A stretch of DNA of 64,000 bases, taken from assembly GCA_001600055.1 (NCBI GenBank), contig BCIV01000020.1, positions 338,309 through 402,308 on the forward strand, given 5' to 3'. Positions 7,466 to 17,560 of the stretch are shown one piece after another (position 1 is the first letter of the stretch; each line of letters opens with the position of its first letter). Under the pieces are notes generated by a model. The model was given only the letters and a program-made list of their open reading frames with translations, had not been told where the DNA came from and searched no databases. The position numbers and the translations under genes are program-made. Source of the stretch: Filobasidium wieringae. Its lineage: Eukaryota; Basidiomycota; Tremellomycetes; Filobasidiales; Filobasidiaceae.

Positions 7466-9609
7466 ATGTCCACCACCGCCAAATTCCCATCAGACTTTTA
7501 CTGGGGTTACGCTACGGCATCGGCGCAGATAGAAGGATCTGTAAGTCTAGTACTCGATACGTGTGTCAAGCAGGATTCTTATGTCGACCTGCAATAACCC
7601 ACACAGATCGCAGCTGATGGCAAGAGCCCCTCCATCTGGGACACCTTCTCAGCTGACCCTTCTCATAGTGAAGACGGAGGAAGCACAGCAACAGCGACAG
7701 AAAGTTATAAGAAATGGGAACAGGATATAGATCTCATGAACTCATATGGCGTAAATTCGTACCGTTTGTCTCTTAGCTGGTCTAGGATCATTCCGGGAGG
7801 ACGATCTGGTCAACCGGTCAACGCCGCTGGAGTTCAATGGTATCGTAGAGTTCTCAAACGGCTTCTTGAAGTGGGAATTGTCAGTCGCCCCAACCTCCTC
7901 CCTGTCTTCGATACCCAGCTTATGCACGTCGCGATGATCACGATGACAGACCCCATTCGTTGTAAGTCCGGTCCCGCTTTTCATGCCGCTTCATTGCTCA
8001 ATCGAAGCACTCGCTTTTAGACCTTGTTTCATTGGGATCTACCGCAGGCCCTTCAGGACGAATATAAGGGTTTTCTTTCCTCTCAGATTGTTGCCGATTT
8101 CGAGAACTATGCAAAAGTCTGCTTTGAGTCTTTCGGCGACCTCGTCAAATATTGGTTCACTATCAATGGCAGGTCCATATTCTTTGCCTGACTGGAACAT
8201 TTCCGTCAACTTATCCTGCACCCCACTCACTCACAGAACCAAACGTATATTCCGTTCTGGGTCACGCTATCGGACGCCATGCTCCAGGCAGATCATCTGA
8301 CCGATCCATCTCGCCTGAAGGGGATTCGTCTACAGAACCTCTCCTCGCCGGACACAACCTCTTGTTGGCCCATGCTACCGCGGCTAAGCTTTATATGAGA
8401 GATTACGCACCTGTACATAAAGGAAAGATAGGGCTTGTCGTGAACATGTTGTGGGGAGGCAAGTACAGTTGTCACCTAGACTTGATTCATCAGGGCTGAT
8501 AGTCTTGGGACAAAACAGAACCTTTCGACGATACACCAGAGAGTGAGTAGTGTGAATCGATTTCGCTACTCGAATGTGGCCTCAACGTAAAGCACCATAG
8601 ACGTGACTGCTACCAACCTATTTCTGGCGATTTACAACGGATGGTGAGTCTATGGATCGATATCCTGACGAGGGCTATGAAGTAATCTCTCTTATGATCG
8701 ACTTTAGGTTTGCCGAGCCTTTAATCACAGGAGACTATCCACAGCTATGCCGAGACACACATGGCGAGCGACTGCCTCGGTTTACCGACGAGCAGCAGAA
8801 ACTGCTCAAGGGTTCGAGCGATTTTCTTGCGTAGGTTCCCTTCTAGGGATTCTGATCAACCACTAATTCTGACGAACTTTTGACCACACCATGATAGCAT
8901 CAATCACTACACGACGCAGATGATTAGATCAGTCGATACCTCCGCTGATTCTGCAGGACCTATGTCTAGTTTCCTTCCTGGTGTCGAGCTCGGCTTCAAG
9001 GACAAGAACGGCGAGATGATCGGACCGGAGGCAGGTCTGTCTTGGGTGCGACCGGTTCCTTGGGGCTTCGCGAAGCTGCTAGATTGGGCTTACAAGAGGT
9101 AAGCCAAATCTGACTGGCGGTCTAGCTATTTGTTCGCTGATCTGTCAAGTCTGTATAGCTATGGCTTGGATATTTACGTGTAAGCAACCAGTGACAGAGT
9201 GTATATAGCACCTTCCTTAATACTGACGGAACCTCTCTGTAACCTTCTAGCTCGGAAAATGGCGTTGTTTGTCCAAAGGAGAACGAACTAGACCGAGACA
9301 CGGCTCTGAATGACGAGTTCCGAATCGACTACCTTCGTTCCTATGCCGATCAAATCGCTCTCAAGATTGGGGAGGGTATTCCAGTTAAGTCGTATATCAT
9401 GTGGGCTTTCACGGACAACTTTGAATGTAAGGACGAAGTGCTAGCTGCAAGGCTCTTAGTGTTGACATATACCTTCATCCGTAGGGCAAGAGGGCTATAC
9501 GGCTCGTTTTGGAGTTACATGGATCGACTATGATGATGATTGCAAGCGATATCCCAAGAAGTCAGCTACCTACATGCGAGACTATTTTGCTGCCCGTCAA
9601 TTGCTATGA
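7466..9609 (+). CDS. Glycoside hydrolase family 1 beta-glucosidase, intracellular type
   Basis: GH1 enzymes release glucose, or related sugars, from beta-linked disaccharides and short oligosaccharides. The protein starts MSTTAKFPSDFYWGYATASA, the usual GH1 N-terminus with no signal peptide, so it should act in the cytosol. Visible motifs are GKSPSIWDTFS, the spliced TLFHWDLPQAL, the acid/base motif NEP (reconstructed as WFTINEPNVYS across an intron near 8169-8236), the nucleophile motif SENG near 9252, and MWAFTDNFEW with GVTWIDYDDD at the end. Length is about 490 aa, normal for the family. Around ten introns are present, including a probable 12-nt microexon at 7950-7961 that encodes TPFV, and a GC-AG intron that splits the catalytic Glu codon. 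The gene is the first of a four-gene carbohydrate cluster. Confidence 0.93.
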
Positions 9610-10022
9610 TAGGGGAAAGACATGAGAACATTGTGTATCGTAGAAACGAAATGTCCGGCTGTCAATCGGTATGGCAACATGGGGTGTATTTCAGTCTTGT
9701 AGTATCAAGCTTTGATCGAGATGATTGGTAGCTCCAATCTCAGAGATCAACCGTCAGACAATTCAGACGATCAAACAATGACTGATTTGCCTCCGCTGCG
9801 GGAGCCCCCGGTATATCCACCATCACCGAGCGAAGCTCTACCTTCGGTTCGCAGCAGTCTGTGTGATATTAGCTGACTGCACAAACTCTCGTTCGATTCA
9901 GCGATATTCAGCATCTACGCACAGCGCAAAAGGGCTCTGACTGAGATATACCGGCTGGCTACAAAAAAGACAATGGGGATGGCTCCCTTAGAGCAGCATA
10001 AGAATTCCATCCATCCTTCTCA
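9610..10022. promoter_or_regulatory. Intergenic region upstream of the Zn2Cys6 regulator
   Basis: A 413 bp gap between the GH1 stop and the regulator start, so it holds the GH1 3' end and the regulator promoter. It contains TACCGGCT at 9949-9956. The same 8-mer occurs at 15064-15071, between the GH43 and transporter genes. Autoregulation is a plausible inference but unproven. Confidence 0.4.
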
Positions 10023-14969: not shown

Positions 14970-15523
14970 GCGAGAAGCACGATAGATCTAGGGAACTCCA
15001 GGACTTTAGACGTTGTCTACCAGTCAAAGCAGGTTCTATGTAGAGTACTTTGGCAGGCAAGCATACCGGCTTATTCCTCTAGTCAAATTCGATCCCGTCT
15101 CGGCGATCGGGGTTCGGGGTTCGCGCCGGTCATTACTTCGAGTTGAAATAGGCCGGTGGATCTCTTGGCTGAGAAAGGTGCTGACGCCAGCGCAGGCCAA
15201 TTACCATCAGCTTGCTTACCCGCAGCGAACACCCGCAGATCCGCAGATCTGGTAAATGACCGTTATACGATCGGGGCCACAGAGTGATCGGCTGGGCCCA
15301 GAAATAGTCCTCTGCCGGCCATATTCATGTTCGGGAGGAACATCACATCTCCCACTTGTAAGCAAAAGCGGGGTCCCGAGCGTATGCGGAGGTGCATATA
15401 GATAACCATCAAACTATTCCGAGCAGGATTCAATATGTTCATGACGCTTTACAAATTTTTCGAACCTAAACCTCAAGAGTAGAAGTCAGAGAACGATTCC
15501 CTATCCCATTCAACACTGCTATC
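14970..15523. promoter_or_regulatory. Shared promoter of GH43 and the MFS sugar transporter
   Basis: This 554 bp gap separates divergent genes. It contains TACCGGCT (15064-15071), GCCGGT (15125-15130), GGCCGGTGG (15151-15159) and TGCCGGCC (15313-15320). These CCGG-centred elements resemble those upstream of GH1 and of the regulator gene. Co-regulation of import and hydrolysis through this segment is an inference. Confidence 0.5.
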
Positions 15524-17560
15524 ATGCCTACCGAACGTATGAAATATGGTGACAAGAATGCCATCCGGCAAGAGCTCACGCGAAACCTCGTCTTTGTCGC
15601 GTTCTTTGCGTGCATGGGATCTGTAAGCTGCAGTTAGATTTCCATCTCCGGGGAGGTCGACAAGCTAAGATATCGTGTACTTGTCCTAGTTCACTTTCGG
15701 GTACGATAACGCATGGTGGGGAGGTGTTCTTGGCCACCCGTACTTTATCGAAATCTTTGGAACACCTACTGTAAAAGACGGGGTTGCTACTCGGGAGCTC
15801 ACCTCGACTCAAATCTCTGTGGGGACTGCCATGGGAACAGCCGCCATCGGAATCGGCTGTATGGTGGCTGGTTTTATCGCCGATGCTATAGGCCGAAAGC
15901 GATCATTCTACGTAACGGCGTTCGGGTCAGCCGTCGGGATCGTCATCGAGGCTACCTCTGGCATCGGCGGAGCAAGGTTCTGGCAACTTGTTGCCGGCAA
16001 GATAGTCATCTGTATGGCCATCGGAGTCGCATCTGTATCGGTTCCCCTCTATCTTGCTGAATGCGCCCCGGCGCCTGTCAGAGGAGCTATGGTAAACTCT
16101 TATGTCTGGATCCAGTGTCAGTCTATCCTGAATAAGCCCCTTGAGAATGATACTTATATCGCTGTTATAAAACAGCAATCGGAGGCTTTGTGGCATACGG
16201 CGTCATCTATGCAGTCCTTCCAAAATCCTCCTCCCTAGTTTGGCTGGTTCCCATCTGCCTCCAGCTTCTCGCGCCAGCCGTCACTTGCATTTTCGCGCCT
16301 CGACTTCCAGAGTCTCCCCGGTGGCTAGTGGAGAAGGGTCGAGTTGAGGAAGCTCGCGATGCTCTTCTATTCCTCAGGGGCGGTAAGGCTGGATACGATG
16401 TCGACACCGACATAGCCGCTTTGCAGGCCAATTTCGAAGCCGCTCAATCGCGTCACAAGGCCAGCTGGTTGAGTCTCTTCAAGGGAAGGAACTTGAAGCG
16501 AACGAACGTTTGCATCGGTGTACAGAGGTGAGCTTCCATTTCTCTGCTCTAGGCTTGGACTGCAGCTGAAAATCGGGTTTGACTGGCAATTAGTTTACAG
16601 CAAGGACAGGGTCTTTCGTTTGTCGCGAATTATATGGTTGTGTTTTTCATCCAGCTCGGAATCGCGAATCCCTATCAGATTCTGCTCATCAGTAAGTCGG
16701 AAAACCTACAAGCAAAGAAAGTCTCACTCTCTGACGGGTCATAGCGCAGTCTACGGCGCAGTCTTGATCCCCTGTACTGCATCAGGATTTTTCATTCAAG
16801 ACTACTTCGGTCGACGCACGTTGTTAATATGGGGAGGAGCTGCCATGGGAGCTGCTATGTTCGGACTGGCAGGGATTGTTGCCTCAGCTCCAGGAGGAGT
16901 GGTCTCTGGAGCCAAGTCGAACGGTTGTATAGCTTTCAGTAAGTAAGCGCTTTGAAGGATGGTTGTGCGCGACTGACAGGCAGCGTTACTCCAGTCGTCC
17001 TCTGGCTCGTCGCATTCACCCAATCCTGGACTGGTATTCCCTGGACTGTATCGGCAGAGATTCCAGCCGACGAGCTTCGGGACAAAACGTTGGCAGTAGG
17101 CGCCGCTTGTGGATACTGGTCGGGTAAGCTATAACCAAAACACTTGAGTTCGCCGTAGATCCTGATAAGTATACTGGTTCATACAGGTATGCTCGTCGGT
17201 CTTGTTTCGCCCTATTTACAACAGGATCCTGTGTATCTGGGTGGTAAAATTGGTTTCATCTGGGGAGCGGTCTCTGTGATAACAGTTGTTTGGGTTTACT
17301 TCGTTGTGCCCGAGCTCAAGGTGAGAAAGCGAGACTCGGATCGCGCCTCTTGAAATCGCGTCGCTGAATATCTGTCGCATCAGGGACGCAAACTCGAGGA
17401 GATCGATTTCATGTACAACAACAATGTTCCGGCCCGCAAGATGTCGACTTACGTTATGCCTGTCGAGTCGAGCGTAGTTCCTCAAGCATTGCAAGAAGAG
17501 GATGAGAAAGGAGATTTCAAGGGAGAATTCGAGCACAACGATGTTGTCAATCAGGTGTGA
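15524..17560 (+). CDS. MFS sugar transporter (hexose/oligosaccharide permease family)
   Basis: A 12-helix plasma-membrane permease of the fungal sugar-porter family, about 520 aa. The start MPTERMKYGDKNAIRQELTR is followed by TM1 with FTFGYDNAWWGGV, the loop motif GFIADAIGRKRSF, PLYLAECAPAPVRGA, the central PESPRWLVEKGR signature, DYFGRRTLLIWGG and the late PELKGRKLEEIDFMY. About eight short introns split the helices. The C-terminal tail is acidic and ends NDVVNQV. Its start lies 554 bp from that of the GH43 gene, on the other side of a shared promoter, and GH1 and a regulator are close by. Together these suggest uptake of cello- or xylo-oligosaccharides in the manner of Neurospora cellodextrin transporters. 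The substrate cannot be read from the sequence, and hexose or pentose uptake is also possible. Confidence 0.88.

Follow-up and report, generated by a model that had tools for sequence, protein, structure and literature searches.

Gene content and layout of the locus

We analyzed a 64-kb stretch of the Filobasidium wieringae genome (19.76 Mb, 33 contigs), in the following called the window, which corresponds to positions 338,309–402,308 of contig C20. At window positions 7466–17560, about 147 kb from the nearer end of the contig, it carries four complete, intron-rich protein genes. They encode a glycoside hydrolase of family 1 (GH1), a Zn2Cys6 transcription factor, a glycoside hydrolase of family 43 (GH43), and a permease. 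An earlier reading of the letters alone (the sequence-only reading) had described four adjacent genes for the import and intracellular cleavage of beta-linked plant-wall oligosaccharides at this place. The gene models, which were spliced by hand and contained no internal stops, together with Pfam matches that exceeded the curated cut-offs for all four proteins, confirmed the content and orientation of the locus. Its limits are the start codon of the GH1 gene (7466) and the stop codon of the permease gene (17560). Consecutive genes are separated by 413, 167, and 572 bp, and the GH43 and permease genes diverge across the 572 bp. The features are listed below in window coordinates.

7466–9609, plus strand: GH1 beta-glucosidase, 480 amino acids (aa), 12 exons
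Exons 1–6 of the GH1 gene, plus strand: 7466–7540, 7607–7879, 7950–7961, 8021–8168, 8237–8458, 8519–8542
Exons 7–12 of the GH1 gene, plus strand: 8601–8643, 8708–8830, 8898–9098, 9159–9179, 9251–9426, 9485–9609
9610–10022, no strand: intergenic region of 413 bp, putative promoter of the regulator gene (from the gene models)
10023–12818, plus strand: Zn2Cys6 transcription factor, 640 aa, 13 exons
14951–12986, minus strand: GH43 glycosidase with GH43_C2 domain, 542 aa, 6 exons
Exons of the GH43 gene, minus strand: 14951–14646, 14585–14469, 14395–14128, 14065–13724, 13650–13313, 13243–12986
14952–15523, no strand: intergenic region of 572 bp from which the GH43 and permease genes diverge, putatively a promoter for both (from the gene models)
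15524–17560, plus strand: sugar-porter family permease of the major facilitator superfamily (MFS), 534 aa, 8 exons

Of the 11 GH1 introns, two (8169–8236 and 8459–8518) were modeled with GC-AG borders, because only in this way were the NEP motif and the reading frame preserved; all other introns in the four final models are of the GT-AG type. Automatic splicing by codon score was rejected, as it lost the DNA-binding exons of the regulator and the first exon of the GH43 gene. A GH43 model of 565 aa that lacked the last intron was also rejected, since a counterpart of the additional stretch was absent from the relatives shown.

The two hydrolases and the permease

The GH1 protein matched Glyco_hydro_1 with 462.3 bits over residues 5–473 (profile positions 3–447 of 453). 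The motifs TINEP at residue 167 and SENG at residue 382 are intact and aligned with those of solved enzymes; we take E170 (TINEP) to be the acid/base and E383 (SENG) to be the nucleophile. Among the 60 solved relatives shown out of 193, the closest single-domain proteins are beta-glucosidases, e.g., 4mdo, 6kht, and 2e3z.

The GH43 protein matched Glyco_hydro_43 (210.1 bits) and GH43_C2 (131 bits), both above the cut-off. Its best solved relative is 5z5d, named as a beta-xylosidase, followed by BoGH43B (5joz) from the xyloglucan locus of Bacteroides ovatus. The window protein shares the two-domain layout and the catalytic triad with BoGH43B (PMC10952531, PMC4967831): residues D17, D139, and E195 align with the triad, for which the roles of the residues have been described (PMC4967831), and are intact. 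BoGH43A and BoGH43B are bacterial enzymes, and both are active on para-nitrophenyl-beta-xyloside as well as on para-nitrophenyl-alpha-L-arabinofuranoside, so that the specificity of the fungal GH43 is not fixed by this likeness (PMC10952531). The assignment to GH43 was correct, while the designation as a beta-xylosidase in the sequence-only reading was too specific, because the solved relatives show either or both pentosidase activities. As judged from these relatives, the protein could have at least two kinds of activity: it may be a beta-xylosidase or, equally possible, an alpha-L-arabinofuranosidase.

Both hydrolases had been described as lacking signal peptides, and this was borne out. The catalytic domains begin at residue 5 (GH1) and residue 6 (GH43), and a hydropathy scan, which is not a signal-peptide predictor, showed no strongly hydrophobic stretch within the first 40 residues of either protein. 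Of 30 aligned GH43 relatives, 15 were shown; 12 of these have no residues before Met1 of the window protein, two lack the N-terminus, and one has 41 extra residues. Since the hydrolases start at the catalytic domain, they are probably cytosolic. GH31 genes were present at six loci of the genome and not among the four cluster genes, and complete degradation of xyloglucan would therefore require enzymes encoded elsewhere.

The permease belongs to the sugar porter family, with 304.4 bits to Sugar_tr (Pfam) and 293.4 bits to TIGR00879 (NCBIfam, cut-off 237.8). It contains PESPRW, IGRKR, GRR, and PELKG, which we take to be sugar-porter motifs, and Asp39 lies within GYD in the first hydrophobic segment. 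The best solved relative, plant STP10 (133 bits), is too distant to fix the substrate, and we consider the protein a putative oligosaccharide importer. The likeness to the cellodextrin system drawn in the sequence-only reading was too specific in this respect. Among the best 120 of 916 permease matches none was identifiable by name as a CDT protein.

The regulator and the upstream regions

The product of the gene between the two hydrolase genes matched Zn_clus (24.1 bits, cut-off 21) and, at residues 288–428, Fungal_trans (31.1 bits, cut-off 23). The zinc cluster CX2CX6CX7CX2CX6C is found at residues 16–44. From its position and from precedent, this protein may control the other three genes. 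In the basidiomycete yeast Rhodosporidium toruloides, galacturonate induces a regulator of the zinc binuclear cluster type, which is required for growth on this substrate, and two genes of the galacturonate pathway are linked and have a common promoter region (PMC6918025).

The scan of the upstream regions comprised 64 gapped CGG/CCG pairs, with a best uncorrected P of 0.049, and 6- to 8-mers. Among the 1,732 seven-mers seen, ATACCGG had four occurrences in 1,985 bp of upstream sequence, where 0.25 were expected (uncorrected P 0.00014); in the whole window it occurred nine times, where 7.8 were expected. This is not significant after correction and counts as no more than a lead. The four copies of ATACCGG/CCGGTAT lie at window positions 7251, 9808, 9948, and 15063 and are thus spread over all three upstream regions of the cluster.

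Grouping of the four genes compared to chance

The grouping of the four genes is unlikely to have arisen by chance. With random gene order, about 1e-6 to 9e-6 four-gene runs of this make-up were expected in the genome. The calculation used four GH1 genes, three GH43 genes, 34 merged porter loci, and 40 merged Zn2Cys6 loci including the window, or alternatively an assumed 80 porters and 80 regulators, with an assumed 6,000–7,500 genes. For runs of any two of an assumed 120 carbohydrate-active enzymes together with a porter and a regulator, the expectation was 0.0005 to 0.005.

We also counted how often such genes lie together genome-wide. Hydrolase genes less than 15 kb apart were merged into one locus, and a match to Zn_clus or Fungal_trans defined a regulator-type gene; the porter and regulator lists, like the sizes of some contigs, are lower bounds. 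Of the 14 loci holding GH1, GH3, GH43, or GH78 genes, three had a porter as well as a regulator-type gene no more than 10 kb away. When positions were shifted circularly, 0.04 such loci were expected and none of 20,000 trials reached three; when the distance to the contig ends was kept, 0.17 were expected (P 0.00035). In the following, pairs of P values refer to these two procedures in this order. Inclusion of GH5 and GH31 gave three of 27 loci with both neighbors (P 0.00005 and 0.00085). As the window locus had prompted the count, the analysis was repeated without it, and two of 13 loci still had both neighbors (P 0.0006 and 0.009). For a porter alone, the numbers were 4/14 (P 0.001 and 0.007) and, with the window excluded, 3/13 (P 0.009 and 0.046). 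The calculation and the counts thus support the claim that transporter, enzymes, and regulator are physically clustered in a non-random manner.

Comparable loci in the same genome

Three further regions of the genome resemble the window locus. At 1.371–1.390 Mb of contig C2, a GH1 gene diverges from a porter gene and is followed by a Gfo/Idh-like stretch (26.2 bits, slightly below the cut-off of 27), a match to the window regulator, a second porter, a GH5 gene, and an FMO-like gene. The C2 regulator is the best match to the window regulator in the genome (E 2.7e-14, next best 1.0e-9). The second half of its zinc cluster is readable, CERLELTCAYSSEKRGRKP, and three of its open frames that were scanned gave no Pfam match, so that it is identified by similarity and half a zinc cluster alone. 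Because it is missing from the Zn_clus and Fungal_trans lists, the C2 locus was not counted above among the loci with both neighbors.

The region at 15.6–41.2 kb of contig C5 comprises a porter, a GH3 gene, a Fungal_trans match, a second GH3 gene, a second porter, an alpha/beta hydrolase, a GH78 rhamnosidase, and a paralogue of the window GH43. The paralogue diverges from the GH78 gene, which is the sole rhamnosidase of that family found in the genome. On contig C12 (11.5–20.5 kb), a Fungal_trans match, a GH3 gene, and a porter lie within 9 kb, about 11–20 kb from the contig start. The Zn_clus list contained nothing for C5 or C12, so that the term regulator denotes a Fungal_trans match at both loci. 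The C5 and C12 loci lie within about 41 kb of the contig start, the C2 locus within about 70 kb of the contig end.

With these regions, the window locus is less isolated than the sequence-only reading had supposed, and clusters of a similar kind are also published for ascomycetes. The related suggestion of a discrete module overstated the conservation observed: among the best 120 matches listed for each protein, the GH43 and permease orthologues described below mostly belong to different named species.

Relatives in other fungi

Searches of a large protein set covered the GH43, the permease, and the regulator. For the GH43, the best 120 of 6,386 matches were listed, and a quick tree was built from 49 of them, the window protein, and one paralogue (51 rows in all). 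For the permease, the best 120 of 916 matches were listed, and the quick tree combined 41 of them with the window protein and five paralogues (47 rows in all). Short metagenome rows were mostly excluded from both trees.

The window GH43 falls into a clade of seven with a Shimodaira–Hasegawa-like approximate likelihood ratio test (SH-aLRT) value of 100, together with Naganishia vaughanmartiniae, Naematelia encephala, Saitozyma sp. JCM 24511, Cutaneotrichosporon cavernicola, and two metagenome rows; all named members are Tremellomycetes. A recent bacterial origin of the GH43 was unsupported, as the protein is nested in this clade. An NCBIfam scan of one GH43 relative (P0001) gave no match. The clade around the window permease has 10 members (SH-aLRT 100). 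Besides the window protein, these are Filobasidium floriforme (74–75% identity), Leucosporidium, two Phenoliferia proteins, Naematelia aurantialba, Tremellales sp. Uapishka_1, Naganishia onofrii, and two metagenome rows; Leucosporidium and Phenoliferia belong to the Microbotryomycetes. The nearest neighbors in the trees, N. vaughanmartiniae for the GH43 and F. floriforme for the permease, are both Tremellomycetes of the Filobasidiaceae, in agreement with the basidiomycete yeast host named in the sequence-only reading.

One metagenome row in each of the two clades (P0095 and P0139) is listed with ENA as its source, and for both rows the longest contig measures 16,932 bases. Because source and contig size coincide, the GH43 and permease orthologues probably lie on one metagenomic contig and would hence be linked in another organism. 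Separately, a gene model of Aspergillus desertorum (P0080) fuses the end of a sugar porter to a GH43, which suggests that a porter and a GH43 are neighbors there; this porter differs from the window permease (about 30% identity over 148 residues).

Relation to known systems

Clusters with similar parts are known from ascomycetes. In the ascomycete yeast Pichia (Scheffersomyces) stipitis, beta-glucosidase genes adjoin sugar transporter genes, some of them divergently, in the clusters SUT2-BGL1-HXT2.6, HXT2.5-BGL3-SUT3, HXT2.4-EGC2-BGL5, and BGL2-HXT2.3-HGT2, and the BGL1 and BGL3 clusters are strongly induced by cellobiose (PMC2784038). Unlike the window locus, these clusters as listed in that report include no regulator and no GH43, and one has an endoglucanase (PMC2784038). 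In Kluyveromyces, a permease adjoins a beta-glucosidase in CEL1-CEL2 and LAC4-LAC12-CEL2, and CEL1 and CEL2 of K. dobzhanskii jointly allowed growth of S. cerevisiae on cellobiose; these clusters, which were assembled and lost within the genus, are named there without a regulator or GH43 (PMC6926475).

In Trichoderma, a region holds CLR2 and other transcription factors together with a GH1 and an MFS permease, and the authors suggest that their regulation and expression may be connected (PMC7607812). The likeness to the window is one of gene families. Trichoderma is a filamentous ascomycete, and the other members given for the region are GH2, GH4, and GH26, with no GH43 (PMC7607812). The Neurospora pathway with CDT-2, GH43-2, GH43-7, and GH1-1, in which imported oligosaccharides are hydrolyzed inside the cell by GH1 or GH43, follows the same logic, and CDT-2 and GH43-2 were reconstituted in S. 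cerevisiae (PMC4338637). This likeness concerns the pathway. In the cited report the Neurospora oligosaccharide pathway genes are not described as clustered (PMC4338637).

The arrangement is thus known from ascomycetes, and the combination of parts in the window differs and is unusual. The sequence-only reading knew of no described cluster of this make-up in basidiomycete yeasts; in agreement with this, no GH43-GH1-permease-regulator cluster of such a yeast was found in the open-licence PMC papers searched, which is not proof of absence.

Proposed function and alternative explanations

On balance, we consider the locus to be a catabolic gene cluster for short plant-wall oligosaccharides of the hemicellulose type, an explanation in which we have moderate confidence. 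The permease would import small glycosides into the cell. In the cytosol, the GH43 would cleave terminal pentoses (beta-xylosyl and/or alpha-L-arabinofuranosyl) and the GH1 terminal beta-glucosyl units, and the products, xylose or arabinose and glucose, would enter ordinary metabolism. The Zn2Cys6 protein would sense an inducer derived from the substrate and activate at least the shared GH43/permease promoter. The most likely substrates are short plant oligosaccharides containing pentose and glucose, with uptake followed by cytosolic breakdown. The analysis shows the gene structures and families, the intact catalytic residues, the lack of visible signal peptides, and a grouping that exceeds chance; we infer that the four genes act together, which way the permease transports, what its substrate is, and how the genes are regulated.

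Several observations weigh against this explanation. Conservation of the grouping looks thin: the GH43 and permease clades have only the window and the ENA contig in common and share no named species, and the two genera present in both, Naematelia and Naganishia, are represented by different species. F. floriforme has the permease and no readable GH43 row among the best 120 of 6,386 matches; N. vaughanmartiniae has the GH43 orthologue and no readable permease row among the best 120 of 916. In N. onofrii, the locus tags of the GH43 (QFC24_006745, outside the window clade) and the permease (QFC24_004624) are distant, and the two genes sit on contigs that differ in size. None of the 7,991 scored candidates for relatives of the regulator reached E 0.001, a search in which the word-based first step can miss a fast-evolving protein and which does not prove an orphan. 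No motif was shared by the three upstream regions after correction. The GH1 genes on contigs C8 and C10 (two of the four GH1 loci) and the GH43 gene at 160 kb of C2 had no porter in the 20-kb stretches inspected. For regulator-type genes alone, the excess near hydrolase loci was weak (4/14, P 0.019 and 0.059; 3/13 without the window, P 0.067 and 0.17).

In an alternative explanation, the unit is smaller: GH43 and permease form a divergent pair, which may or may not include the regulator and would act on a pentose-containing substrate such as xylobiose or arabinoxylan fragments, the GH1 being an unrelated neighbor. The 572 bp between the divergent genes speak for this, as does the ENA contig of 16,932 bases: with GH43, permease, and regulator searched, the GH43 and the permease were the sole pair with a sign of linkage elsewhere. 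The porter-GH43 neighborhood in A. desertorum points the same way, with a porter only about 30% identical. However, the GH1 gene on C2 also lies near porters and near the best match to the window regulator, which favors a link between GH1 and regulator, and we regard the smaller unit as rather unlikely. Still less probable is a dynamic neighborhood, in which genes for hydrolases, porters, and regulators accumulate where the genome is changeable, e.g., near chromosome ends, and do not form one regulated unit. The closeness of the C5, C12, and C2 loci to contig ends, the discordant species distribution of GH43 and permease among the tree rows, and the lack of a common promoter motif after correction are consistent with such regions. 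Between the window locus and the nearer contig end, however, there are about 147 kb, and the excess of complete groupings persisted when the distance to the ends was kept, also without the window.

We consider it very improbable that the cluster serves the detoxification or use of plant pentosyl-glucosides, e.g., phenolics with xylose-glucose or arabinose-glucose, from which the GH43 would take the pentose and the GH1 the glucose. The pairing of a pentosidase with a GH1 would suit such disaccharides, and the solved GH1 relatives shown include plant phenolic and diglycosidic glucosidases such as beta-primeverosidase. The closest single-domain ones are nevertheless the beta-glucosidases named above, and an aglycone-processing enzyme is not among the four genes.

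If the four genes of the proposed catabolic cluster do act together, an importer for wall oligosaccharides, the hydrolases, and their regulator are packaged in about 10 kb of a basidiomycete yeast genome. They would offer ready-made parts for yeast strains using cellobiose or xylo- or arabino-oligosaccharides, and a tractable case for the assembly of catabolic clusters in Basidiomycota. As a single locus this is a sensible and not a startling addition to the published ascomycete clusters; the recurrence of hydrolase, porter, and regulator in one genome is the more general and most interesting point. Tentatively, much of the catabolism of plant oligosaccharides may be organized in loci resembling polysaccharide utilization loci (window, C5, C12, and C2), each with an importer, hydrolases, and its own regulator, a generalization that we put forward with considerable doubt. 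In the window, the permease of such a locus would belong to a small clade found chiefly in yeasts of the Basidiomycota, and the regulator would be fast-evolving, which we hold to be similarly doubtful.

Flanking genes

The description of the neighbors as ordinary housekeeping genes could be checked by half. On the right flank, two open frames were scanned against Pfam and gave no match. The left flanking gene carries TPR repeats (Pfam) and is presumably CTR9-like.

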